The translations under genes and the position numbers were made by a program. Positions 26,877-39,519 of a stretch of 58,134 nucleotides of DNA are shown here, piece by piece. A model generated the notes under the pieces. That model was not told the origin of the DNA. It ran no database searches and saw only the letters and a list, made by a program, of their open reading frames with translations. The stretch's first letter is position 1. Each line of letters starts with the position of its first letter. Source of the stretch: Gammaproteobacteria bacterium (lineage in GTDB: Bacteria > Pseudomonadota > Gammaproteobacteria > Poriferisulfidales > Poriferisulfidaceae); NCBI GenBank assembly GCA_026713705.1, contig JAPONY010000084.1, positions 1 to 58,134 of the forward strand. The letters run 5' to 3'.

Positions 26877-27614
26877 TCAGGGGATGGGCAGCATGATGAT
26901 CGCGCCCATCGTGCGCACGGCGGCCTGGTGGGCGCGGTCCCGCCACCCGTGCGTGATGCTCACCAGCACCCGCTGGTGCCCGACCAGTTGGTCCAGGATC
27001 TGTTCGGCGGTGGGTTCGGGCAGGCCCGATTCCTGAAGTCGCACCTCGCCCTCGTGGTGCAGCAACGGTGTGCCGTCCGGCGCGGTTCGGCGCTTGAGGC
27101 TTGTGCGGACGATTTCCAGGTTATTGGCAAAATTCTCGAGATTCTCGGAGTCCAGCCGGTTCAGGGCGAAAAACTCCAGCTTGTCGTTGTATGCGATCCG
27201 CATCTGGCTGACGATGCCGACCATCAGAGCGAACACCCGGTCCCCGATGAAGCGGGGCTCGAACGCCAGCTGCATCGCCTCGGTGCCGCGGTGGCTGTTC
27301 AGTTCCCCGAAGCGCAGTTCGTCGTAGGTGCGGTCCGGCAGTAGCTGGGCGACCCGTTCGTCGACTGTGGCATCCGGCATTTTCGCCAGTTCCCCGGGAT
27401 TCAGCCGGTACAACTCCCGCATTAATGCCTCAAGCCCCCCGGTCGTGGCATTCAGGTGCGCATCCAAGGCGTAGTCCACGCTGGTCTTGGCGATTCCCTT
27501 GACCTCTTTGGGGATGTCTTGGGTGGTGAAGAGATCGTTCTTGCAGCCGACCAGCGCCAACGCCAGCGTCAGCGCCAGGCCAATGCGGATTCCATAAGGG
27601 TGAATAGTGTTCAT
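26877..27614 (-). CDS. predicted lipoprotein of unknown function
   Basis: This 245-aa protein begins with a lipoprotein signal: positively charged start, hydrophobic LALTLALALVG and the lipobox cysteine in LVGCKN. The mature part is mostly helical, with segments such as NLENFANNLEIVRTSLKRR and a C-terminal GWRDRAHQAAVRTMG. No family is recognised. It overlaps the upstream von Willebrand factor A gene by ATGA, so the two are translationally coupled. The start at 27614 was set from that overlap and the signal peptide. Confidence 0.78.
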   Translation of the reverse strand: MNTIHPYGIRIGLALTLALALVGCKNDLFTTQDIPKEVKGIAKTSVDYALDAHLNATTGGLEALMRELYRLNPGELAKMPDATVDERVAQLLPDRTYDELRFGELNSHRGTEAMQLAFEPRFIGDRVFALMVGIVSQMRIAYNDKLEFFALNRLDSENLENFANNLEIVRTSLKRRTAPDGTPLLHHEGEVRLQESGLPEPTAEQILDQLVGHQRVLVSITHGWRDRAHQAAVRTMGAIIMLPIP

Positions 27615-29842
27615 AGAGTGATGCGGCGGTAGATGTCGGATACCTTGGTCGGAAGTTTTTCGATTTGACTGACCACGGCGAAGTTGGAGGCCCCGTACAT
27701 GTGCGGAAGGTACTCCATGCCTTCCTTGTCTATGGTAATGCAATACGGATGTATTCCCAAATGTCGGGCCTCGTTCAGCGCCTGACGCGTGTCCTCGATG
27801 CCGTAGGTGCCCCGGTAGCCGTCCTGGTCGTCCGGCTTGCCGTCGGACAGCGTGATCAGCAGGCGGGTGCGGGCCTCCGTGTCTTTCAGCAGTTGCGTGA
27901 GGTGGCGGATCATGACGCCCATGCGGGTGTAGTTCCGGGGCGTGATGCCGCTGATGCGGCAGCGCACGTCGCCGCCGTAAGGTTCGTCCAGGCCCTTGAT
28001 CGGGTACAGCTCGCAGTTGCGGTGGGTGCGCCCGGAGAATCCGTAGATCGCGTACCGGTCGCCCAGGGCTTCCAATGCGCCGCACAACAGGACCAGCGCT
28101 TCGCGCATCAGGTCGTTGATCCAGCCGGAGGTGGAACTGCTCATGTCGACCAAAAACATCACGGCGATGTCGCGGTCCAGTTTCTTCATCCGGGTGAACA
28201 GCCGCTCGTCCAGTTCCGAGCCGCCGACATAGTCGCTGTAGGCGTTGATGAAGCTGTCCAGATCCACTTCGTCGCCGTGCAACTCCCGGCGGACGCGCTT
28301 CTCCTCGTCGCGCAGGGCCTCGAACGTGCGCCGGAGCCCGGCGAGCAGGCGGCGATACCGATCCAGCGTATCCAGTGCGAATTGTTCGCTGGAGCCCGTG
28401 ATCGGGCGCTCGTACAGCTGGCACCAGTCGGGCCGGTATTTCTGGCGGGAGTGGTCCCATTCCGGGTAGACGTAATCGGCGTCTCCTGTTTCAGGCTGGG
28501 TGTCTTCCTGTTCTTCCGAGGCCGGGGGATAGGCGCCCATGTCGGCCGGCTCGAGGTATTCGTCGGGAATCTCCCCGAGATCCTGGATGATGGACTCCAG
28601 CAGTTGCTGGACATCCTCCGGCGGGGTGACGGCTTCGTCGCCGAACTCCAGGGAGAACGCGAATTCGTCGGCTACCTGATCCGTCTCCCTGCGTACGGTG
28701 AAGCGTTCGCTCTGTTCTTTCTCGGACTGGAAGGGAGACAGTTCCTTTTTCATGCTGAGCAGGGCGTTCGCCAGTTGATGTCGTTCCTCGTCAACCCGTT
28801 TGACCAGAATGTCGGCCGCGAGTTCGGGGCGCAGCACGCCCTGGTACGAGACTTCGGGAAGCGTCGCCGTCGTGGGATACAGCGTTTCGAGCAGGCGCAG
28901 GGAGTCTTCTACCGTGGCCTGCGGGTCCGAGATCTCCTCGACGGCGGCTGTCCATTCGTCGGGCAGACCCTGCCATGCGTCGGGCGGATTATGGCGTTTG
29001 AGGATGCGGCCGATGCCGGGCATGTCGTGCCGGAGCCGGGCATCCAGGCGAAGCATTTCCAGTGCGTGGAAATATCGGCGGGCGCGAGCACGATCCGAAT
29101 AGCCGGAGAAGGCGTCGGCGGGTGCCCGGTACGTTCCGTAGCGGGTCTGCGCCCACAAGTGTGCAGCGGTGGCCTTGAGCAGGTCGAAATTCTCTTCGCG
29201 GGTGTCGCAGGTGTCGAGCAGGTCGGGCAGGTAGACGGTCTCCGTGTCGGTGTACGGTTCGGCCGCGGATTCGACGTTAAGGGTGCGCCCGCCGAAGCCG
29301 ACCAGCAGGGACTCGATGAGCCGGTCCACATCGTTCAACCGGACGCTGCGGGCGCCGCCGAGCACTTTCTGCAGATAACTTTCCACCTGCTGCATGGCTT
29401 CTACGGCACCGGTGACGCCGACGCGGTCGTAGCAGGTGCCAAGGTGGGCGAGCCAGCCGTCCCACTGCTCTTCGTCGATCATGCGAAGCGAGGGGATTCC
29501 GAAATGGAAGAATTGGTATGCCAGTTCGACGTCTCTCTCGGCCAGGGCCTGTCCCGATTCCAGGAAGCGGCGTTGCTCGAAATGATTGAAGGCGACCAGC
29601 TGCTTCGCGGGTTCGTGTACGCGGCGCCGGTTGGAAAGGATGCGCTCGATGACCTGCTCCATGCGCAACTCCAGTTCGCGCTCGCCCATCCCGCCGTATT
29701 GGGCGCTGGCCCGGATGCGGGGGCCTTGCTCGATCAGTTCTTCCGGCAGCCGGGCCGAGCCCTGGCGGAGGTTCCGGTACAACTGCACCCACGGTGCGGC
29801 GAGTTTGTGCCCAAGCAGGGTCAGGAAAGAGGGAGGAGGCAT
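27611..29842 (-). CDS. von Willebrand factor A domain protein (NorD/CbbO-like)
   Basis: This protein of about 743 aa has a long helical N-terminal region and a C-terminal vWA domain. Its MIDAS motif is DMSSS at about residues 566-570, followed by YAIYGFSGRTHRNCELYPIKG and LLITLSDGKPDDQDG. The layout matches NorD and CbbO, which act with MoxR-type AAA+ ATPases (NorQ, CbbQ) to activate metalloenzymes such as NO reductase or Rubisco. No such ATPase, nor nor or cbb genes, lies in the window. The start is either ATG 29842 or TTG 29863. An acidic low-complexity linker lies near residues 440-460. Confidence 0.82.
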   Translation of the reverse strand: MPPPSFLTLLGHKLAAPWVQLYRNLRQGSARLPEELIEQGPRIRASAQYGGMGERELELRMEQVIERILSNRRRVHEPAKQLVAFNHFEQRRFLESGQALAERDVELAYQFFHFGIPSLRMIDEEQWDGWLAHLGTCYDRVGVTGAVEAMQQVESYLQKVLGGARSVRLNDVDRLIESLLVGFGGRTLNVESAAEPYTDTETVYLPDLLDTCDTREENFDLLKATAAHLWAQTRYGTYRAPADAFSGYSDRARARRYFHALEMLRLDARLRHDMPGIGRILKRHNPPDAWQGLPDEWTAAVEEISDPQATVEDSLRLLETLYPTTATLPEVSYQGVLRPELAADILVKRVDEERHQLANALLSMKKELSPFQSEKEQSERFTVRRETDQVADEFAFSLEFGDEAVTPPEDVQQLLESIIQDLGEIPDEYLEPADMGAYPPASEEQEDTQPETGDADYVYPEWDHSRQKYRPDWCQLYERPITGSSEQFALDTLDRYRRLLAGLRRTFEALRDEEKRVRRELHGDEVDLDSFINAYSDYVGGSELDERLFTRMKKLDRDIAVMFLVDMSSSTSGWINDLMREALVLLCGALEALGDRYAIYGFSGRTHRNCELYPIKGLDEPYGGDVRCRISGITPRNYTRMGVMIRHLTQLLKDTEARTRLLITLSDGKPDDQDGYRGTYGIEDTRQALNEARHLGIHPYCITIDKEGMEYLPHMYGASNFAVVSQIEKLPTKVSDIYRRITL

Positions 29843-29870
29843 CGCGTTGCGCGGGTCGAGCAATCCTCAA

Positions 29871-32800
29871 TCAGCCTGTCCGGGGTGTTGGAAGTTTGAG
29901 AATTTGAGCGATGTGACCGAGGCTCTCCTGATCGGAGAAGAAAAGAATGTGATGCTTTGCGAATTTCTCCTTAGTCCATTTCCCGTCGTCGTATCGTGGC
30001 TTCAGGTCGTCATACGCAGTGGCGGAGAGGATGAACGAGTCCAGCGTGATACCGCGCCGTCTGCTTTTTCGGGTGAGTTCCTTCTCGATATCGGGGAGCC
30101 GTTCGTGAAGCCGTGCCTTGTCGTCGTTCCGGTAATTTTTGGCGTGGATCATGCCATGCGGTTCGATGAAGACGATATGCTGCCGGTTTCCAGTCACATG
30201 CCACAGGATGAAGTCAGGATAAAAGCCATAGTTCTGGAAAAAGCCCACTCCCTTGCCGCGGCTCTGGTTCCGGAGGAGAAAGACCTCCGAGTCGGCTAGC
30301 GATTTATCCTTTTCGCGCTTCCAGTATTTCCTCAGGTCGCGCACGAATTTTGTTTCGCTGCCATTCATGGGCGGCGGTGAGATTTTTCCAATCTCTGTGT
30401 TCTCGATGAGAAGGGGTTGATAGATGTGCCGGTCGAAATGGATGCGTTCCAAGCCATTAGAATTTTCTTGTTCGTACAGCAGGTCGGTCTGCCGGAGGAG
30501 CAGGTCTATGTGCTCAATCAGGCCTTCTTTCTGCCGGGATACGCTGATGATGTACCCTGCGTCGTCTGGATCCTCGAAGTCGAAGCTGAGGTTTGAGTTG
30601 CGCTGATTCAGAGTTTTGTATTTCATGTGTTGACTGGTCCAGCGACGACGTTGTTCGTTATAAAAATTGGTGGCGTAGGTGCGCAGTATGCTGGTAGCGG
30701 CTTCCTGCAAGGATTCCAGATCGGCAAGGGATTTCGGCTCTCTGGTGGATGGCGTGGCGACCAGACTGTAGGGAGGTGCGGTTCGACCGGTTCCAGCAAC
30801 GATCTCCTTCAATGCTTCCGGCGAGGGAATCGCTAGGTTGCCCAGTTGTTCCTGTTTCTTATGCTCAAGCAAGTCGAGATAGGCTTTTTCCCAATCTACC
30901 AGTCCTAGACTTTCGGCAGGAAGCGTGGCCGAATGCTTGGATGTGGCTTCGATAACTTCGCCACCGCTTTCCAGTATTTGTATTCTCGGAGACAGGTCAA
31001 CGTGAACTTTTGAGTCACAGTCATTTGGGTTGCCTTCGTCAAGTAGCAGGTTTACTTTATCCGTGAAGTTCAGGTCCTCGGCCATCTGGGGTATGGCCAA
31101 ATTTCGGTTCAGGAATGTCTTGTTGACTTTGATGGGCACTCTGATTTCAACAGGCTCGTCGATTTCCACGCCCTCACGCTCAAGGTAGTCCCGGAACTTG
31201 GCCATGTAGTTGGCGCGGATGGCGAAGATGTTCAGTGTTTCCAGCAGGTTTATGTGTTGCGGGGCCTTCCCGAGCAGCGCCGTGCTGCGCTTGAGCGTGA
31301 GGTCCTTGCCGCGCAACCGGATTCCGCGGCCAAACAGCTGGATGATCTCGGATCCTTCTTGGCGACCGATATTGAGTAGGCCCATGTTCGAGACCCGCCA
31401 GGAGTTCCAGCCTTCCATGAATTTCTTGGCACCGATCAGAATGTTGACTTCGGAGGCTGGATTGTTAATGCGTTCGAATAGGGAGGAACTGATGGCATCC
31501 TCTTCGAGCGCGATGTCCAAGTCGTCTTCTTCCAAGACTTTTTTGAATTTTCCGGTGTCCCCGATGTAGATGACTCCGAAGTACCGGTCAGCCCCGCTGG
31601 CTTTGAGGCCGAATTCTCCCGCGCTTCCCCGGATGCCACAAAGATGCAATCTTCCTCCCGCTCGGGCATGAAAGGTTCGTGCGAGGATGTCCGAGTAGCA
31701 TTCCTGCGATGAAATACCGACCTCGCGAAGGTATGGAAATTTTTCGTGGAAAACATCTTGTCCATTCACGGGGGGCAGGCCAGTGTTTCCATTGAGGAGG
31801 GATCGGATTTTCTTGGTTACCCATCCGCGCTTGTTCAGGAGGACGCGATGCAGGAAACGGGCGACGGTCATGACGTCGCTTCGTTTTTTTTCCTGCTCCG
31901 TGTAGACGGCGTTGACGGTGCTCCCGACGAAGGTCCACAGAGGCTTTTCGAGCAGGTAAGGGTGAATCTCACCTGCCTTGTCTTCGAACAGGCGCTGCTG
32001 CTCGTAGAAGGAGAGTAGATTCCCAAGCAGGAGCAGGTTCGTCTGTTCCTCGACGGTGTCCTGCTGCAAGTTGAGGACGCGGAAGTCTTTGCCATAGCCG
32101 TCGCCGTGGAAATAGCGGAAAGAGTAGTCGAAGACGATGGATTTCCCGTATTGCTGGGTCAGGTCTCCTTTTTTCGCGGCTGCCAGAGCCTGTCCGAATG
32201 TGGCGCTGTACTCGAAGGTGAATCCGGTTCTACCAAGTTCCTCACGAACCGCCCGCCATGCTTCTCCGCCGGAGCCCTTGTGCCCTTCATCGACGAATAC
32301 CAGATTATTTCCCTCGAATCTCTCGATCGGGACGCTGACCCCGTTGCCCTTTCGATTTTTGGTGAGTTTAGTGATTTCTATGACCTGAACCGTGTCCCTC
32401 TCATAGTGCGTGAGGCCGCCGTCAGCCATGTCGAAGAGTTTTGCGGGAATGCCGGACTTTTGCAGGTCGTTCAGGTGCTGTTTGCTCAACCCTTCATTCG
32501 GGGTGATGAGGAGGATGTTGTCCAGCGAGGTGCGCAGATTCATCGCTCCGTAGTGCATGAACTGATGGTAGTTGAGATGCATAATGAGGGTTTTGCCGCT
32601 TCCGGTCGCCATCCAGAAGGCTAGCGTGTTCAGGTCGCTATCGCGAAACTTTTCGTGAAGCGGTTCACTGGGGTGTTTTCGGGCGTTGTGTTCCAAAACA
32701 TGCGAGTTCAGCGAATCCAACAATCTGCCGCGCTGGTCGGCACGGCGGGCGTCCAGGAAGATTTCGGTGTAGAGAACTGCCAAGTGCTGAAAGTACCGTA

Positions 32801-33086
32801 GCCGTATCGGCTGGACTCTTCCGGCGTTGATGGAATTCAGGTGGTTGCGGACATTACGGTCGTAGCGTTCCAGGTCGCCCATGGAAAACTGGACCGAGTT
32901 GCTGCGGGATCGCAAACGTAGTAGCAGGTGGCTTTGACCGGATTCACAAAAGCCTTCATCCGCCTGCTTGAGGTCTTCGAACAGTTCTTGATTGCTAGTG
33001 TATCCAAGGTGGCCGTTAAGCCATGAGAGAAGCAGCAGTTGCTTCTCCAACTTGACGTAGGTATTGCTTGGCGCAAGCACGGTCAC
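29871..33086 (-). CDS. res: type III restriction enzyme, Res subunit (DEAD/DEAH helicase-nuclease)
   Basis: This 1071-aa protein has superfamily 2 helicase motifs: Walker A MATGSGKT (159-166), DEGH (266-269) and the SAT motif in YSATFG, with the RecA-like second half including GLLNIGRQEGSEIIQLFGRGIRL. Near the C-terminus, YPDFILWHV (PD at 957-958) followed by FIEPHGM (E975) looks like a PD-(D/E)xK nuclease with His in place of the usual Lys. It would translocate on DNA and cut unmethylated sites with Mod. It overlaps the HepT-like gene by ATGA. AT-richer than core genes. Confidence 0.88.
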   Translation of the reverse strand: MTVLAPSNTYVKLEKQLLLLSWLNGHLGYTSNQELFEDLKQADEGFCESGQSHLLLRLRSRSNSVQFSMGDLERYDRNVRNHLNSINAGRVQPIRLRYFQHLAVLYTEIFLDARRADQRGRLLDSLNSHVLEHNARKHPSEPLHEKFRDSDLNTLAFWMATGSGKTLIMHLNYHQFMHYGAMNLRTSLDNILLITPNEGLSKQHLNDLQKSGIPAKLFDMADGGLTHYERDTVQVIEITKLTKNRKGNGVSVPIERFEGNNLVFVDEGHKGSGGEAWRAVREELGRTGFTFEYSATFGQALAAAKKGDLTQQYGKSIVFDYSFRYFHGDGYGKDFRVLNLQQDTVEEQTNLLLLGNLLSFYEQQRLFEDKAGEIHPYLLEKPLWTFVGSTVNAVYTEQEKKRSDVMTVARFLHRVLLNKRGWVTKKIRSLLNGNTGLPPVNGQDVFHEKFPYLREVGISSQECYSDILARTFHARAGGRLHLCGIRGSAGEFGLKASGADRYFGVIYIGDTGKFKKVLEEDDLDIALEEDAISSSLFERINNPASEVNILIGAKKFMEGWNSWRVSNMGLLNIGRQEGSEIIQLFGRGIRLRGKDLTLKRSTALLGKAPQHINLLETLNIFAIRANYMAKFRDYLEREGVEIDEPVEIRVPIKVNKTFLNRNLAIPQMAEDLNFTDKVNLLLDEGNPNDCDSKVHVDLSPRIQILESGGEVIEATSKHSATLPAESLGLVDWEKAYLDLLEHKKQEQLGNLAIPSPEALKEIVAGTGRTAPPYSLVATPSTREPKSLADLESLQEAATSILRTYATNFYNEQRRRWTSQHMKYKTLNQRNSNLSFDFEDPDDAGYIISVSRQKEGLIEHIDLLLRQTDLLYEQENSNGLERIHFDRHIYQPLLIENTEIGKISPPPMNGSETKFVRDLRKYWKREKDKSLADSEVFLLRNQSRGKGVGFFQNYGFYPDFILWHVTGNRQHIVFIEPHGMIHAKNYRNDDKARLHERLPDIEKELTRKSRRRGITLDSFILSATAYDDLKPRYDDGKWTKEKFAKHHILFFSDQESLGHIAQILKLPTPRTG

Positions 33087-33424
33087 CTGCCATCCAGGAT
33101 CTCATCCAGCATGCTGACCAGATTTGGCAGGTCGTGCGCCACCGTGTCGAACAATATTTCCAGATCAAGGCTGTCGTAGCCGTGGGTCATCCTGTTGCGC
33201 ATGCCGATGATTTCGCTCCAAGGAATACGGGGACACTGTCCTTGAGTCTCAGCGGAAACCCGATTCGCTGCCTCTCCAATGATTTCAACCAGTCTCGTCA
33301 GCGCGAGTTGCATCATGCGGTTCTGCAAAAGGTCTTTTTGGTCTTTTGAACCCAGCATGGCAATGGCCTCGCGCGCGTGGGCACGCATATCCTCAAGGCT
33401 TGTCCGATCATCCCGCTCGCTCAT
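33083..33424 (-). CDS. HepT-like HEPN toxin (DUF86)
   Basis: This 113-aa all-helical protein carries the HepT motif RX4HXY as R76-NRMT-H81-G-Y83 (in GMRNRMTHGYD), preceded by the helix LVEIIGEAANRVS. HepT proteins are HEPN-family RNases, neutralised in known systems when MntA adds AMP to the motif tyrosine. The gene overlaps the MntA-like gene by 17 bases and res by 4. Its location between mod and res inside a restriction operon is unusual and suggests functional coupling. Confidence 0.88.
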   Translation of the reverse strand: MSERDDRTSLEDMRAHAREAIAMLGSKDQKDLLQNRMMQLALTRLVEIIGEAANRVSAETQGQCPRIPWSEIIGMRNRMTHGYDSLDLEILFDTVAHDLPNLVSMLDEILDGR

Positions 33425-33716
33425 ACTGCACTTCCGCTATGCGCAACACTTTGTCACGAAAACGAGGATTGAGGCCGGGCACGGTATGAATTTCCGCACG
33501 GCGTCCGAGAATTTGGCTTAGCTCGATTTCCATGCCGGACAGGCCGATAAAGCCGATAGGAGGATGGTTTGGCTCGAATTCCACCAGAATGTCGATATCG
33601 CTGCTTGGGGTGAAGTCGTCCCGCAGGACGGATCCGAACAATGCCAAGCGACGGATATGGTTACGCTGACAGAATGTAGTGACCTCTTCTCGGGGAATGT
33701 GGATTCTAGCAGTCAC
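33408..33716 (-). CDS. MntA-like minimal nucleotidyltransferase antitoxin
   Basis: This 102-aa minimal nucleotidyltransferase has the intact motif GS-x10-DxD: G28-S29 and D40-I-D42 in ALFGSVLRDDFTPSSDIDI. In studied MntA/HepT systems this enzyme polyadenylylates HepT and silences it. It overlaps mod by ATGA upstream and hepT by 17 bases downstream, so the four genes mod-mntA-hepT-res are translated as one chain. Confidence 0.88.
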   Translation of the reverse strand: MTARIHIPREEVTTFCQRNHIRRLALFGSVLRDDFTPSSDIDILVEFEPNHPPIGFIGLSGMEIELSQILGRRAEIHTVPGLNPRFRDKVLRIAEVQYERAG

Positions 33717-36700
33717 GCTTTAACCTCGGCGAACATGCGGGCTTTGAACAGGGGATCCAGTGACGTGGCTTCGCGAATCAGGGAGTCTCCGTTGACGAAA
33801 ACTTGGTTGGCACCAGCGGTAATCTTGTGCTTGGCGACGAATTTCTTGTCTCTCTCCAGATCATTTTTCTGCCAGCCGTCAGTGTTTCTCCAGATGATGA
33901 CAGTATCAAGGTCATCCCGAGTCTTGCCACGATAGACGAGGTACCGTCGTTTGCCATCGGACAGTAATTTCCGGGTGCAGACATGGAGGCCAAGCAGATA
34001 ATTGAAGGTTTCCGGGATATCCGCAGCCACTTCTTGAAGTCGGTTTCCAGCATGGAGTTTGTAGTCGAACGGATTCGTCAGTTTTTCGGTGTTGAGCAAC
34101 GTGTTGCTGTGCTTCGTCTCCCACTGGAGCATGTATCGGAGCAAGTATCCGTCCAGTTCCAGTGCTCTTTGTGTGGTTGTCTCGTCGAAATCTATGTTGT
34201 TGAGCGCGTCCTCATAGGACTCAAGTCGGATGTATTTGATGAGGCGCGGGCTACGCATGGATTCTTCTTGGGTAGGCTCCCGGTTTGGCATTCCGTCTTT
34301 CCACTCGGGCGCGAAGATTATTTTTTTTAGGCGAGGCAGAATGACAGAGTCAAAGTGGTTGCCCATTTCAGTCAGGACAAATTTTCTCTGTCCCCCATCC
34401 AAACGATTTAAGTTGATGACCGCATGGCCAGTAGTGCCGGATCCAGCAAAATAATCGCATACATATGCTTTTTTTCGGTCGGAGCCAGAAGCAAGCAAGC
34501 AATCTTCAACAAGGGTCACGGCCTTGGGATAATCGAACTCGTTGTTAGGCAAAATTTCTCTAAGGGCTTTGGTCCCATGATTGGCAGAAGAGTACAAGTT
34601 TTTCCCCCACCATGTTTTAGGCATGGACCGCATATCCATACGGGTCTTAAAGTCGATGCTAATTTCTCCATTTTTCCCGCGACGGACACGATATTCATTA
34701 GGCTCGCCCATTACTCTTTTCCATCCACGATGCCAGCGTTTTTCAATCTTAGTGCCATTTTCGTGTGTCACCGGCCACACAACAGTTTCGTTATCTTTTT
34801 GTTTCTCTAGAAGATCGTACTGACCTTCTTGTTCATTCCATTTCATTTTTGGGATGTAAATTGAATCATCTGCTCGTACATAGATGGGGTAAAACTGTTT
34901 AGGTCTGTGTCGCCGCAAGGCACCTGATCCGCTACGAATCAGGTTAGCCCAAGAGTACCTTCCTTGCTCATCTTCAAAAGGGTAGCGTTCAAGTTCTTTT
35001 TCCGTTTTTCTTAGGCACCCGGGTGCTGCATCTGATTTTCCGTAGAAAAAAGCATATTCGTGTGAGGGAGAAAAACAACCTGAAGATTTTCTTCCTGCGG
35101 GAGTTGATCTAACCGGAGCAATTCCGAGCTCCCGTTCAAAAATATTTTGCAGAAGTCCACGTAATCGCCATGCCTCTTCATCGTCAATTGCGACGCAAAG
35201 AATTCCATCGTTACTTAAGAGTGTGCGGGCAACAAGCAATCGATTTTGCATAAGGGACAACCATGACGAATTCTTGTAATCATTCTTATAGAGAATGGCC
35301 GACGCATTCGTGTTGTACGGGGGGTCAATGTAGATATTGCCAATTTTCCGATTGTATTTTTCAGCCAGAAAGGTCAAACTTTGAAAGTTTTCGCTTTTGA
35401 TTAGCAGGCCATCACTGATTTCATCCAAGTCGTCGAAACTTTCCAGCAATTGATCGATAAAATCCGGTGTGAAGTGTTTCGTGTCAAGAACCAAAGTTGG
35501 ATGCTGCTCCAGAAACAGAACACGTTTCCCCTTAGCGCCCTTGCCCGAATTGAAGAGATTGGCTTCCTCTTCGTCAATGTGGAGCAGTTCCTTCCATTCA
35601 TCCCACTGAGATTCGCAGGTTGCAATGTCCGGATAGAAGGCTGGGTCAATGTTTCCCATGGTGACGCAGTGCTGCGTTTCCGTGATGAATTTACGTTTCT
35701 CCCACAACATCTTCTGAAAGGATTCGATCTGGTAGAGGAAGTCGATAATCTGGTTGCCGACCGTCTTGATTGCGCGAACTTCCTGAAACCATCCTTCAGC
35801 AAGATCCTCTCCGGCATGTTCCATATCCTCAAGGTTCAGCATTTCATTCTTCAAGTAGAAATCCAGCTCTTGGGATAGAAAGCTCTTCAGGTTCTTGTGG
35901 ATGAAGAAGTCGGAGGTATTGCGACGCGTATACTGTCGCAGGTGGTGCTCCAGAATGCTTACCGGCTCGCCGTCGGTATTCCGGTGATGTTCTTCCAGTA
36001 GGGACGTTCGTGCTTCTTGTGTCGGAATCCGGTCGGGAATTTCCTCTAGGGTCTGGTCATTGATTTTGTCCTGTCGCTGCGTACGTTCGCCATTTTTCTC
36101 ATGTTCGTCCAGCGGCCGGAACTCGAAGGGGATGGTCAGTTCCTTCTCCTTTCGGTCCCATGCGATGTCCTTCGTCGCGGGCAGGAAAAACTTCTTGTCA
36201 CCTTTAATATTGTCTTGCTCCAGTTCTGCGGTCTGAACCCTGAAATGAACCGTGACATTCCTAACCTGGAACGTGTAATGATCGAAGTGTTCAGTCGTTT
36301 TGATGTAGTACTGGTCATGGTTGGCCCAGTGCAGATGCACCTCTTCGCCGTTATAGGGGATGGCGTACCGTTGTTTTCTTGAGTAGCGTTGCTTGGAGAT
36401 GAAGTCGCCTTCCTGATAGTAGCGACTAAAAAAGGCGAAAAGATGATTGAATATGGATGTTTCTACCACCGCGGTATTGCGGGCTCCTCGGTTTCTGGCG
36501 ACCAGCCGCAAATAGCGTTTGCCGACGGCGGTGTCCCGATAGGTATCAGCCAGGTTGCCGTCGCCGTCCACGGCATCTGGTCCTAGGTTGTCCCGGATTT
36601 TCTCCAGAACCACGTTGATTTCTTCGGCAAGATACGCCTGCTCGGATAGCATTCCCTCTTTCAGTGCATCAGAAACAACTTCCGGAATATCCTCAACGAT

Positions 36701-36823
36701 GAATTTCTCGATCACGTCTCGCTTGTGGTTCATGATCCGGTAGATACCGAAGTCCAGATCAGCACGATCAAATTGGAACAATTCCCGGAGGAGATCCTGG
36801 AATTTTTTCAAGGAGTCATTCAT
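33713..36823 (-). CDS. mod: type III DNA adenine methyltransferase, Mod subunit
   Basis: This protein of about 1036 aa has beta-class methyltransferase order: catalytic motif IV DPPYNT at about residues 500-505 and SAM-binding motif I DYFAGSGTTG at about 790-799. The roughly 490-residue region before motif IV is much longer than in classical EcoP1I-type Mod. The N-terminus KKFQDLLRELFQFDRADLDF is characteristic of this large subfamily. The ATG at 36823 (MNDSLKKFQ) fits the family start; a TTG at 36889 would add 22 residues. It lies 90 bases downstream of mutS on the same strand. Confidence 0.88.
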   Translation of the reverse strand: MNDSLKKFQDLLRELFQFDRADLDFGIYRIMNHKRDVIEKFIVEDIPEVVSDALKEGMLSEQAYLAEEINVVLEKIRDNLGPDAVDGDGNLADTYRDTAVGKRYLRLVARNRGARNTAVVETSIFNHLFAFFSRYYQEGDFISKQRYSRKQRYAIPYNGEEVHLHWANHDQYYIKTTEHFDHYTFQVRNVTVHFRVQTAELEQDNIKGDKKFFLPATKDIAWDRKEKELTIPFEFRPLDEHEKNGERTQRQDKINDQTLEEIPDRIPTQEARTSLLEEHHRNTDGEPVSILEHHLRQYTRRNTSDFFIHKNLKSFLSQELDFYLKNEMLNLEDMEHAGEDLAEGWFQEVRAIKTVGNQIIDFLYQIESFQKMLWEKRKFITETQHCVTMGNIDPAFYPDIATCESQWDEWKELLHIDEEEANLFNSGKGAKGKRVLFLEQHPTLVLDTKHFTPDFIDQLLESFDDLDEISDGLLIKSENFQSLTFLAEKYNRKIGNIYIDPPYNTNASAILYKNDYKNSSWLSLMQNRLLVARTLLSNDGILCVAIDDEEAWRLRGLLQNIFERELGIAPVRSTPAGRKSSGCFSPSHEYAFFYGKSDAAPGCLRKTEKELERYPFEDEQGRYSWANLIRSGSGALRRHRPKQFYPIYVRADDSIYIPKMKWNEQEGQYDLLEKQKDNETVVWPVTHENGTKIEKRWHRGWKRVMGEPNEYRVRRGKNGEISIDFKTRMDMRSMPKTWWGKNLYSSANHGTKALREILPNNEFDYPKAVTLVEDCLLASGSDRKKAYVCDYFAGSGTTGHAVINLNRLDGGQRKFVLTEMGNHFDSVILPRLKKIIFAPEWKDGMPNREPTQEESMRSPRLIKYIRLESYEDALNNIDFDETTTQRALELDGYLLRYMLQWETKHSNTLLNTEKLTNPFDYKLHAGNRLQEVAADIPETFNYLLGLHVCTRKLLSDGKRRYLVYRGKTRDDLDTVIIWRNTDGWQKNDLERDKKFVAKHKITAGANQVFVNGDSLIREATSLDPLFKARMFAEVKA

Positions 36824-36912
36824 CTTCAGATGACTTGCGCCAATGGTGTGCGTCGCGGAAAGGTGCGGCAAAGTAGGATTGCTTGCCAATCATAATACAT
36901 ACGGCTTACTGG

Positions 36913-39519
36913 TTAGTCGTCGATGTCCGAATCCGTATCCAGTTTCCGCAGTTCATAGATCAAATCCAAGGCCTCCTTCGGTGACAACTGATCGGGTTTC
37001 ACTTGCCGGAGACGTTCCAATGCTGCCGGGACGGATGGAGGTTTGGGAGGGGCGATGAACAGGTCTTTCTGCGGGTTGCTGCGTGCCCAGCGCTGGGTGC
37101 TGTCGTCCTCGAGTTCCAGCAAATACGCTTGCGCCCGTTCGAGCACCTCCGGGGGGATGCCCGCCAGACGCGCGACCTGTAGGCCGTAGCTTTGGCTGGC
37201 AGGACCGTCCTTGACGGCATGCAGGAAGATGATTTGCTGGCCATGCATCGTGGCGTCCAGATGCAGGTTGATAATTCCGGGATGAATCTCGGCCAGCTGG
37301 GTCAGTTCGAAGTAGTGCGTGGAGAACAGGGTGAAAGCCCGGTTGCGGGTCGCCAGGTGCTCGGCGCAGCCCAGCGCCAGTGCCATGCCGTCGAAGGTGC
37401 TGGTGCCGCGACCGATCTCGTCCATCAGCACTAGGCTGCACTCGGAGGCGTGATGCAGGATGTTGGCCGCCTCGGTCATCTCGACCATGAAGGTGGAGCG
37501 GCCGGAGGTCAGGTCGTCGGAGGCCCCGATGCGGGTGAAGATGCGGTCGATGGGGCCGACCCGGGCGCGCTGGGCTGGCACGTGGCTGCCGATGCAGGCC
37601 ATCAGGACGATCAGCGCGGTTTGTCTCATGTAGGTGGATTTGCCACCCATGTTCGGGCCGGTGATGAGCAGCAGGCGCCGCTGCTCGGACATCAACGTAT
37701 CGTTCGGAACGAACGGTTCGTTCCAGGTCAGCTCGATGACCGGATGGCGACCGGCTTCGATCTCGATGCCGGGCTCGTCGACCAGTTCGGGGCAGCAATA
37801 GCGATGCGCCTTGGCCTGTTCGGCGAAACAGCAGAGTACATCCAACTCGGCCAGTGCCGCGGCGCATTGCTTGAAGTGGTCCAGGTGCGGGACCAAGCCT
37901 TCCAGCAGGTTCTGATAAACCTGTTTCTCGCGTTCCAGTGCCCGGCTTCGCGCACTCAGGATTCGATCCTCGAATTCTTTCAGCTCCGGTATCAGGTAGC
38001 GTTCGTAATTCTTGAGTGTCTGCCGCCGCCGGTAGTGGTCGGGCACTCGCGCAGCTTGGCTGCGTGGGACCTCGATGTAGTAGCCGTGGACCCGGTTGTA
38101 GGCAACTTTGAGCTGAGTGATGCCGGTGCGTTCCCGCTCGGTCGTCTCCATCTCCAGCAAAAAGGAGTCGGCCCCCCGCGACAGTTCTCTCAATTCGTCC
38201 AGTTCAGTGTCGAAGCCCGGAGCGATGGCGCCGCCGTCGCGGATCGTCGGAGGAGGGTTTTCCGAAAGCGCCGAGATCAGATAGGCGGCCAGTTCGGGAT
38301 ATGACTGCAGGTTGTTGCGATAGGAATCGAATTCTTCGGCGTTGATTTCCTCCAGCAAGTGGCGCAGGCCTGGCAGGTGCTGCAAGGTCTGGGCCAGTCC
38401 GCACAGGTCTCGGGGCGAAGCGGTGTATAGAGCGATGCGAGCGACCACGCGTTCGATGTCGGAAGTCTTCCTCAATTGCTCGCGAATCGGACTCCGGTGG
38501 GTGCCATCCAGCAGATGGGAGACGATCTGGTGACGTGTCGCCAAGGTTTGGCGGTCGCGAAGGGGAGACTGGATCCACCGGCTGAGGCAACGGCGGCCCA
38601 TGGCGGTGACGGTTTTGTCCAGTACGCCAAGCAGGCTGTGCCGGGAGTCTCCGGAAAGGGCCTGCTCCAGTTCAAGGTTACGCCGGGTGGTGGCGTCCAG
38701 ATACACATGGGTGTCGCGCCGCTCACGTTGCAGACTCGTGATGTGTGGCAATGCCGCTTGCTGGGTTTCTTGGGCGTAGTACAGCAGGGCCCCGGCGGCC
38801 CCGATGATGGAAGGTGCATCTTGGCAGTCGAAAGCGGACAGGTCGTGGACTCCCAATTGCTGGCACAAGAGCCGCGTGGCGGTCTCGGCGTCGAAATGCC
38901 AGTCCGAAAGGGGTTGCCAGTGCGTATCCTCCCATTCCGGTGGCACGTACGATTCCGGGTACAGGATTTCCGCCGGGCGTAGCCGCTCAAGTTCTGCGTA
39001 CAGGTCTTCGACGGACGGAAGCTCCATGACATTGAAACGACCTGAACTCAGGTTCAGGCTGGCCAGCCCGATTGGGGCGTCCAGCCATAGCGCGAGCAGC
39101 AGGGTGTCGCGCCCCGCATCCAGCAGTTCGTCTTCGATCAGGGTGCCCGGTGTGACAATACGCGAGATCTGGCGTTCCATCGGTCCTTTGCCGGACGGGC
39201 TTTCGCCAACCTGCTCGCAGACCACTGCGGACTCTCCGAGCTGGACGAGTTTTGCGAGATAGGAGTCGAGCGAGACCACCGGAATGCCGGCCATCGGGAT
39301 GGGCTGTCCCTTGGAGCGCCCGCGCTCGGTCAGCACGATGTCCAGCAACTCGGAGCCGCGCTTGGCATCCTCGAAGAATAGCTCGTAGAAATCACCCATT
39401 CGGTAGAGCAACAGGTACTGGGGATATTGCGCCTTGAACTCAAGGTACTGGCGCATGCTGGGAGTATGCTGGTTCTGCGCAGCGGGGGAGGTCAATAGCG
39501 GAGTCGGTTGCAATGCCAT
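36913..39519 (-). CDS. mutS: DNA mismatch repair protein MutS
   Basis: This 868-aa protein recognises base mismatches and small loops. The mismatch-binding Phe-x-Glu motif is in [13 protein letters not shown] near residue 43. The C-terminal ATPase has Walker [15 protein letters not shown] and Walker [17 protein letters not shown], and the C-terminus carries the dimerisation helix region. In many gammaproteobacteria mutS lies next to pncC-recA; here the two are divergent and about 12.8 kb apart, with the sterol operon and two toxin-antitoxin-like modules between them. Confidence 0.97.

Follow-up and report, generated by a model that had tools for sequence, protein, structure and literature searches.

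A class I HEPN/MNT toxin-antitoxin pair in the mod-res gap of a type III-like restriction-modification operon, at a junction that serves as an exchangeable cargo slot

The DNA analyzed here (the window) is the 58,134-nucleotide contig JAPONY010000084.1 of a gammaproteobacterium of the Poriferisulfidaceae (GenBank assembly GCA_026713705.1), in which genes for a minimal nucleotidyltransferase (MNT) antitoxin, mntA, and a putative HEPN RNase toxin, hepT, lie between the mod and res genes of a type III-like restriction-modification (RM) system. The open reading frames (ORFs) read in the window are ordered mutS, mod, mntA, hepT, res and a VWA-domain gene on the minus strand: mod (33713-36823; 1036 aa, with a possible alternative TTG start upstream at 36889), mntA (33408-33716; 102 aa, GTG start), hepT (33083-33424; 113 aa, a HEPN RNase toxin by family) and res (29871-33086; 1071 aa, GTG start). 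All four ORFs are intact and on one strand, and they overlap by 4 (mod/mntA), 17 (mntA/hepT) and 4 (hepT/res) bases, which leaves no space for a separate promoter between them. A scan of 33000-37050, limited to sigma-70-like sites, found no promoter upstream of mntA on the coding strand. This layout suggests that mod-mntA-hepT-res is one co-transcribed operon.

MntA matches the Pfam family NTP_transf_2 (PF01909, E 6e-13) and HepT matches HepT-like (PF01934, E 2e-22). Class I HEPN/MNT systems (type VII) consist of a PF01934 or PF08780 HEPN protein with an RX4HXY motif and a neighboring PF01909 MNT protein with a GSX10DXD motif, and the two motifs are signatures of the polyadenylylation-type HEPN/MNT pairs (PMC7641770). 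In MntA, the adjoining MNT partner, the motif stretch reads GSVLRDDFTPSSDID and contains the catalytic GS-x10-DxD as GS-VLRDDFTPSS-DID (33591-33635, minus strand), while the active-site motif RX4HXY of HepT is RNRMTHGY (R-NRMT-H-G-Y; 33176-33199, minus strand). The G, S, D and D of the former and R76, H81 and Y83 of the latter are invariant in 14 aligned loci. The predicted structures have mean pLDDT (predicted local distance difference test) values of 86 for MntA and 88 for HepT. The closest matches to the predicted MntA fold are MNT proteins (Z 10.6 to 1wot and 10.5 to 7ae9), and that to the predicted HepT fold is 6m6u (Z 12.0), where the top eight rows are all HEPN toxins of HEPN/MNT pairs; a Z of 12 is by itself weak for a helical protein, and the HepT call also rests on those eight rows and on the sequence family. 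By sequence, motif and predicted fold, the pair is thus classed as a class I HEPN/MNT (type VII) toxin-antitoxin (TA) module. The NCBIfam models NF047751 (HepT) and NF047752 (MntA) score 35.1 and 32.8 bits, under the curated equivalog cut-off of 60 bits; the two proteins are related to, but outside, these named equivalogs. Where estimable among relatives, the ratio of nonsynonymous to synonymous substitution rates (dN/dS) is 0.06-0.20 for MntA and 0.11-0.35 for HepT, some estimates being lost to saturated synonymous sites (e.g., HepT of the window versus that of the sister genome G001), and the pair is under purifying selection. The intact motifs and these ratios rule out that the pair is a pseudogene remnant. 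The invariant Tyr83, together with the dead hepT of the two loci that lack mntA (see below), is consistent with HepT being a toxic RNase that MntA would silence by adenylylation of this residue.

Mod matches Pfam N6_N4_Mtase (PF01555) and the PADLOC profile MTase_III (E 6e-162), and Res matches ResIII (PF04851) and REase_III (E 6e-150), with the PADLOC type III profiles spanning most of both proteins. Mod contains DPPYNT at residue 500 and DYFAGSGTTG at residue 790, both conserved in 68 aligned rows, and by sequence it is a type III-like beta-class N6-adenine DNA methyltransferase. An alignment of 59 rows locates the superfamily 2 (SF2) helicase motifs ATGSGKT, DEGH, SAT and GRG of Res and a C-terminal PD...(E)xK-like nuclease motif that reads PDF...EPH, with histidine at the lysine position. 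This histidine is found throughout the clade whose operons have no upstream SNF2 gene, while most SNF2-linked relatives have DPK. Res is predicted to be a type III-like restriction subunit with an SF2 helicase and a candidate C-terminal PD-(D/E)xK-like nuclease. A first-pass annotation of this DNA had placed an MntA/HepT-like pair between the mod and res genes of a type III restriction system, a placement that Pfam, PADLOC and the predicted folds bear out, and the overlaps and intact motifs that it listed were recovered exactly when the ORFs and motifs were read again.

The same annotation had suggested surveying Mod/Res loci for this four-gene order. A Mod scan over one genome per species yielded 79 loci, and recurrence was counted in the clade without the upstream SNF2 gene, where both ends of the mod-res junction are resolved in 52 loci: 14 contain mntA-hepT, two a dead hepT alone and eight other cargo, and 28 are empty. 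Even at 1% per locus, a generous chance rate, 14 in 52 would have a binomial probability of ~1e-16. The hosts are from distant phyla and include Pseudomonadota, Myxococcota, Chloroflexota, Planctomycetota, Latescibacterota, Poribacteria and Aminicenantes, which rules out an arrangement unique to this genome. Neither a unique gene order nor neutral evolution, which the annotation had named as findings that would speak against its idea, was observed; the order recurs and selection on the pair is purifying. Counting the window together with 13 of the 14 loci gives 14 unfused pairs, whose mntA/hepT overlap is 11, 14 or 17 bases, and mntA starts at most 4 bases from the mod stop wherever no other cargo intervenes (L019, with an internal stop in mod, was unscored). 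HEPN/MNT modules rank with the most abundant of mobile gene pairs (PMC2701414; PMC7641770), and such a pair could in principle have landed by chance between mod and res and hitch-hiked neutrally; however, 14 of the 52 loci have it at exactly this junction, co-directional with mod and res, no more than 4 bases from mod when other cargo is absent and under purifying selection, which makes this strongly disfavored and very improbable.

Two loci vary the arrangement. In L028 (13087-13794), mntA and hepT are fused into one gene for a 235-aa protein with both Pfam domains between mod and res, and in L006 (3410-7394), a gene with a weak DndB-like match, an unnamed gene and a D12-class methyltransferase gene lie between mod and mntA-hepT. 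The SNF2-linked sister clade yielded no mntA-hepT, either at the genome and plasmid loci inspected or at five loci of a held-out 398-genome sample of the host phylum, and a protein-pattern scan of the IMG/VR viral contigs with Mod found no relative. SNF2 (DrmD-like)-Mod-Res operons (L082, L083, L086 and similar ones), whose Mods are 38-39% identical, are found on Klebsiella and Aeromonas plasmids, some of which are conjugative, with further matches on plasmids of E. coli and other enterobacteria; in the plasmid copy L086, mod is broken by many stops.

The mod-res junction is a recurrent, exchangeable slot for toxin and abortive-infection genes. Its cargo is on the mod/res strand wherever a gene can be named and includes GmrSD_N proteins (L027 and L044, as well as L030, L059 and L070 by resemblance to L027), an OLD ATPase/TOPRIM (L022), Fic (L052, L063, L069 and L081), RhuM (L045), AAA+DUF4276 (L060 and L083), a 23S-IVP protein (L008) and an AAA_14/DUF4143 protein (L039). 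In L005 (13121-13907), one slot holds two modules, with a class II MNT-HEPN pair ahead of mntA-hepT. Contig C59 of the window's own genome carries a second large mod/res (L141, 5759-12799), whose Mod is 38% identical to that of the window and whose mod-res gap is occupied by a gene for an AbiJ_NTD4 abortive-infection protein that overlaps mod by 11 bases and res by 4. In the independent 398-genome sample, all of the five further loci whose upstream end can be seen are SNF2-linked; of the five slots, three are empty, one has a RhuM-like ORF and one has AAA+DUF4276-like ORFs, the last two recognized by eye. The own genome (1.94 Mb) also contains four more copies of hepT (contigs C50, C53, C91 and C41), three of which have an intact mntA close to the slot type.

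The pair and the RM genes have different histories. On the Mod tree, the 14 loci with the pair are dispersed and require 13 changes, and a monophyletic group of pair-bearing Mods is rejected (approximately unbiased (AU) test, p 2e-5). Grouping of the slot pairs as one clade among free pairs is also rejected (AU p 1.7e-12), likewise after removal of the same-site pair and two long branches. With some Res rows being partial, the distances of Mod and Res are correlated (Mantel r 0.78, p 5e-4), while those of Mod and pair (0.24, p 0.07) and of Res and pair (-0.02, p 0.54) have no clear link. Both trees and this Mantel contrast rule out one ancestral four-gene operon that was passed on vertically. 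The slot pairs are slightly more clustered than shuffled labels, and therefore slot-to-slot transfer probably took place alongside fresh recruitment. Between L005 and L017, the pairs are alike in 78-79% of bases and the flanking mod and res ends in 68-69%.

They also decay separately. The window operon is flanked by mutS (36913-39519, minus strand), the next gene upstream of mod, and by the VWA-domain gene (27611-29863, minus strand) downstream of res; in three sister genomes these two genes adjoin, 35-62 bases apart. In the sister genome G001, a lone mntA-hepT without mod or res is found at the same site between mutS and the VWA-domain gene. Its two proteins are 80% and about 62% identical to those of the window, and the first ~40 bases of the leader between mutS and mod (36824-36912, minus strand) are shared, standing in G001 ahead of the lone pair. 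The simplest history would be a four-gene ancestor from which mod and res were lost; alternatively, the RM genes may have been captured around a pre-existing pair. The pair is also intact in L019 (TAA in mod, TAG in res), L050 (large in-frame gaps in res), L067 (a frame change in res) and L074 (deletions and a frame change in mod, most of res gone). Mod and res together are ten times as long as the pair, so a pair that outlasts one lesion says little, and a lone lesion in a metagenome assembly may be an error; it is L074 and G001 that carry the weight. In L052 and L009, which lack mntA, mod and res are full-length and hepT is dead, having lost RX4H; an intact HepT without MntA was never found in this sample. 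Since the pair and the RM genes decay separately and hepT is dead in both loci without mntA, MntA rather than Mod/Res is likely to silence HepT.

These loci bear on a guard of the PrrC type, in which contact with Mod/Res would silence HepT and inhibition of restriction by a phage would release it. PrrC of the type IC locus PrrI works in this way, and HEPN genes are common in RM operons (PMC3710099; PMC12707154). The window locus, however, does not fit the pattern of a toxin silenced by the RM enzyme with no dedicated antitoxin: mntA is present with its motif intact, the pair is intact where the RM genes are broken (L019, L050, L074 and L067) or absent (G001), and HepT without MntA is dead although Mod and Res are intact in length (L052 and L009). 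We consider such a guard improbable, and the idea in the first-pass annotation of a HEPN RNase that acts if the methylase or nuclease is blocked, when read as a PrrC-like release, gains no support from the same observations.

Upstream of mutS is a class II-like MNT/HEPN pair (PF01909/PF05168; 39595-40508, minus strand), whose nucleotidyltransferase has GS-x10-NFN in place of DxD and is probably catalytically dead. A ~95% identical copy, NFN included, is retained in the sister genome G004, and none was found upstream of mutS in G001-G003.

On balance, and with modest confidence, we propose that mntA-hepT is a self-contained toxin cassette that is yoked to RM expression in an exchangeable slot, where it may act as a back-up effector behind restriction. 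Based on the S. oneidensis system (PMC7641770), MntA would be produced first and AMPylate HepT at its active-site tyrosine, so that the RNase is kept silent. With no room for a promoter of its own, the pair would rely on mod/res transcription for its supply. Upon infection, MntA action may fail through transcription shut-off or loss of ATP or protein, and the freed HepT would cut RNA and halt the cell as a second layer behind DNA restriction. Co-transcription, AMPylation, the trigger and a benefit in phage defense are steps that we infer. Weighing against this proposal, 28 of the 52 related operons have an empty slot and persist cargo-free, a pair that persists without RM genes can be kept for its own sake, and both the trigger and any contact between the pair and Mod/Res are only hypothetical.

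The main rival, possible and clearly less probable, is that a mobile TA gains stability in a co-transcribed gap and punishes loss of the operon as an addiction or selfish cassette with no role in defense. It accounts for pairs that are intact after decay or loss of the RM genes (L074 and G001), for hepT being dead once mntA is lost, for pairs that move independently of Mod/Res and for the abundance of free copies, with five hepT genes in the own genome. Yet the pair evidently failed to prevent RM loss in G001 and L074, and GmrSD_N, OLD, AAA+DUF4276, RhuM and AbiJ are not known as addiction modules. The first-pass annotation had offered both a back-up abortive response and stabilization of the operon; these are inseparable by sequence alone, and the toxin, abortive or defense-like cargo found in the slot leans toward back-up defense over pure addiction. 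An extension of the back-up proposal, which we put forward tentatively and regard as doubtful, is that the junction is a dedicated plug-in socket through which back-up killing modules (HepT/MntA, AbiJ, Fic, RhuM, GmrSD, OLD and AAA+DUF4276) are exchanged across phyla, and that co-transcription with mod/res allows the module in the socket to register, during infection, the status of restriction or of transcription in the host.

The idea that restriction is wired to suicide rests largely on PrrC and on gene-neighborhood predictions. In the present enzyme family, a single operon position combines interchangeable toxins, a complete antitoxin and empty relatives, and the antitoxin, not the restriction enzyme, appears to silence the toxin. 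Nature also provides matched variants, i.e., sister species with and without RM genes at one site and a genome whose two operons differ in their toxin genes, and therefore the coupling of restriction and suicide is directly testable. No description of a HEPN/MNT pair between mod and res was found in open-licence full text, and earlier reports elsewhere are possible. While RM-embedded HEPN toxins are already known, with a back-up suicide role predicted for them (Makarova et al., 2012, PMC3506569; Anantharaman et al., 2013, PMC3710099), a complete TA pair in a type III mod-res gap and the use of this gap as an exchangeable slot are apparently new.

Like S. oneidensis HepT/MntA (SO_3166/SO_3165) and other class I pairs (PMC7641770), the window pair has an MNT gene followed by a HEPN gene, PF01909 and PF01934 domains and both motifs, and its predicted folds match the solved pair; unlike them, it is embedded in mod/res without promoter space, and it is only 15-20% identical over the structural alignment. 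PrrC/EcoprrI similarly places a HEPN RNase gene (PrrC is an anticodon nuclease) inside an RM operon as a proposed second line of defense (PMC3710099; PMC12707154), but in a type IC system, whereas the window locus is type III, has a separate antitoxin and belongs to a group in which the pair is kept where the RM genes are broken. The RM loci grouped under immunity-suicide coupling share toxins, including HEPN, in type I and III operons and repeated toxin replacement; they are stated to be seemingly without typical antitoxins (PMC3506569; PMC3710099), whereas the window locus has a full TA pair and the cargo of its clade is at one precise junction. BREX/DUF499 loci (PMC12839542, 2026) also embed back-up HEPN RNases, some of which are MNT-fused, as in the fusion of L028, although their core system is BREX/DUF499 and not a type III mod/res.

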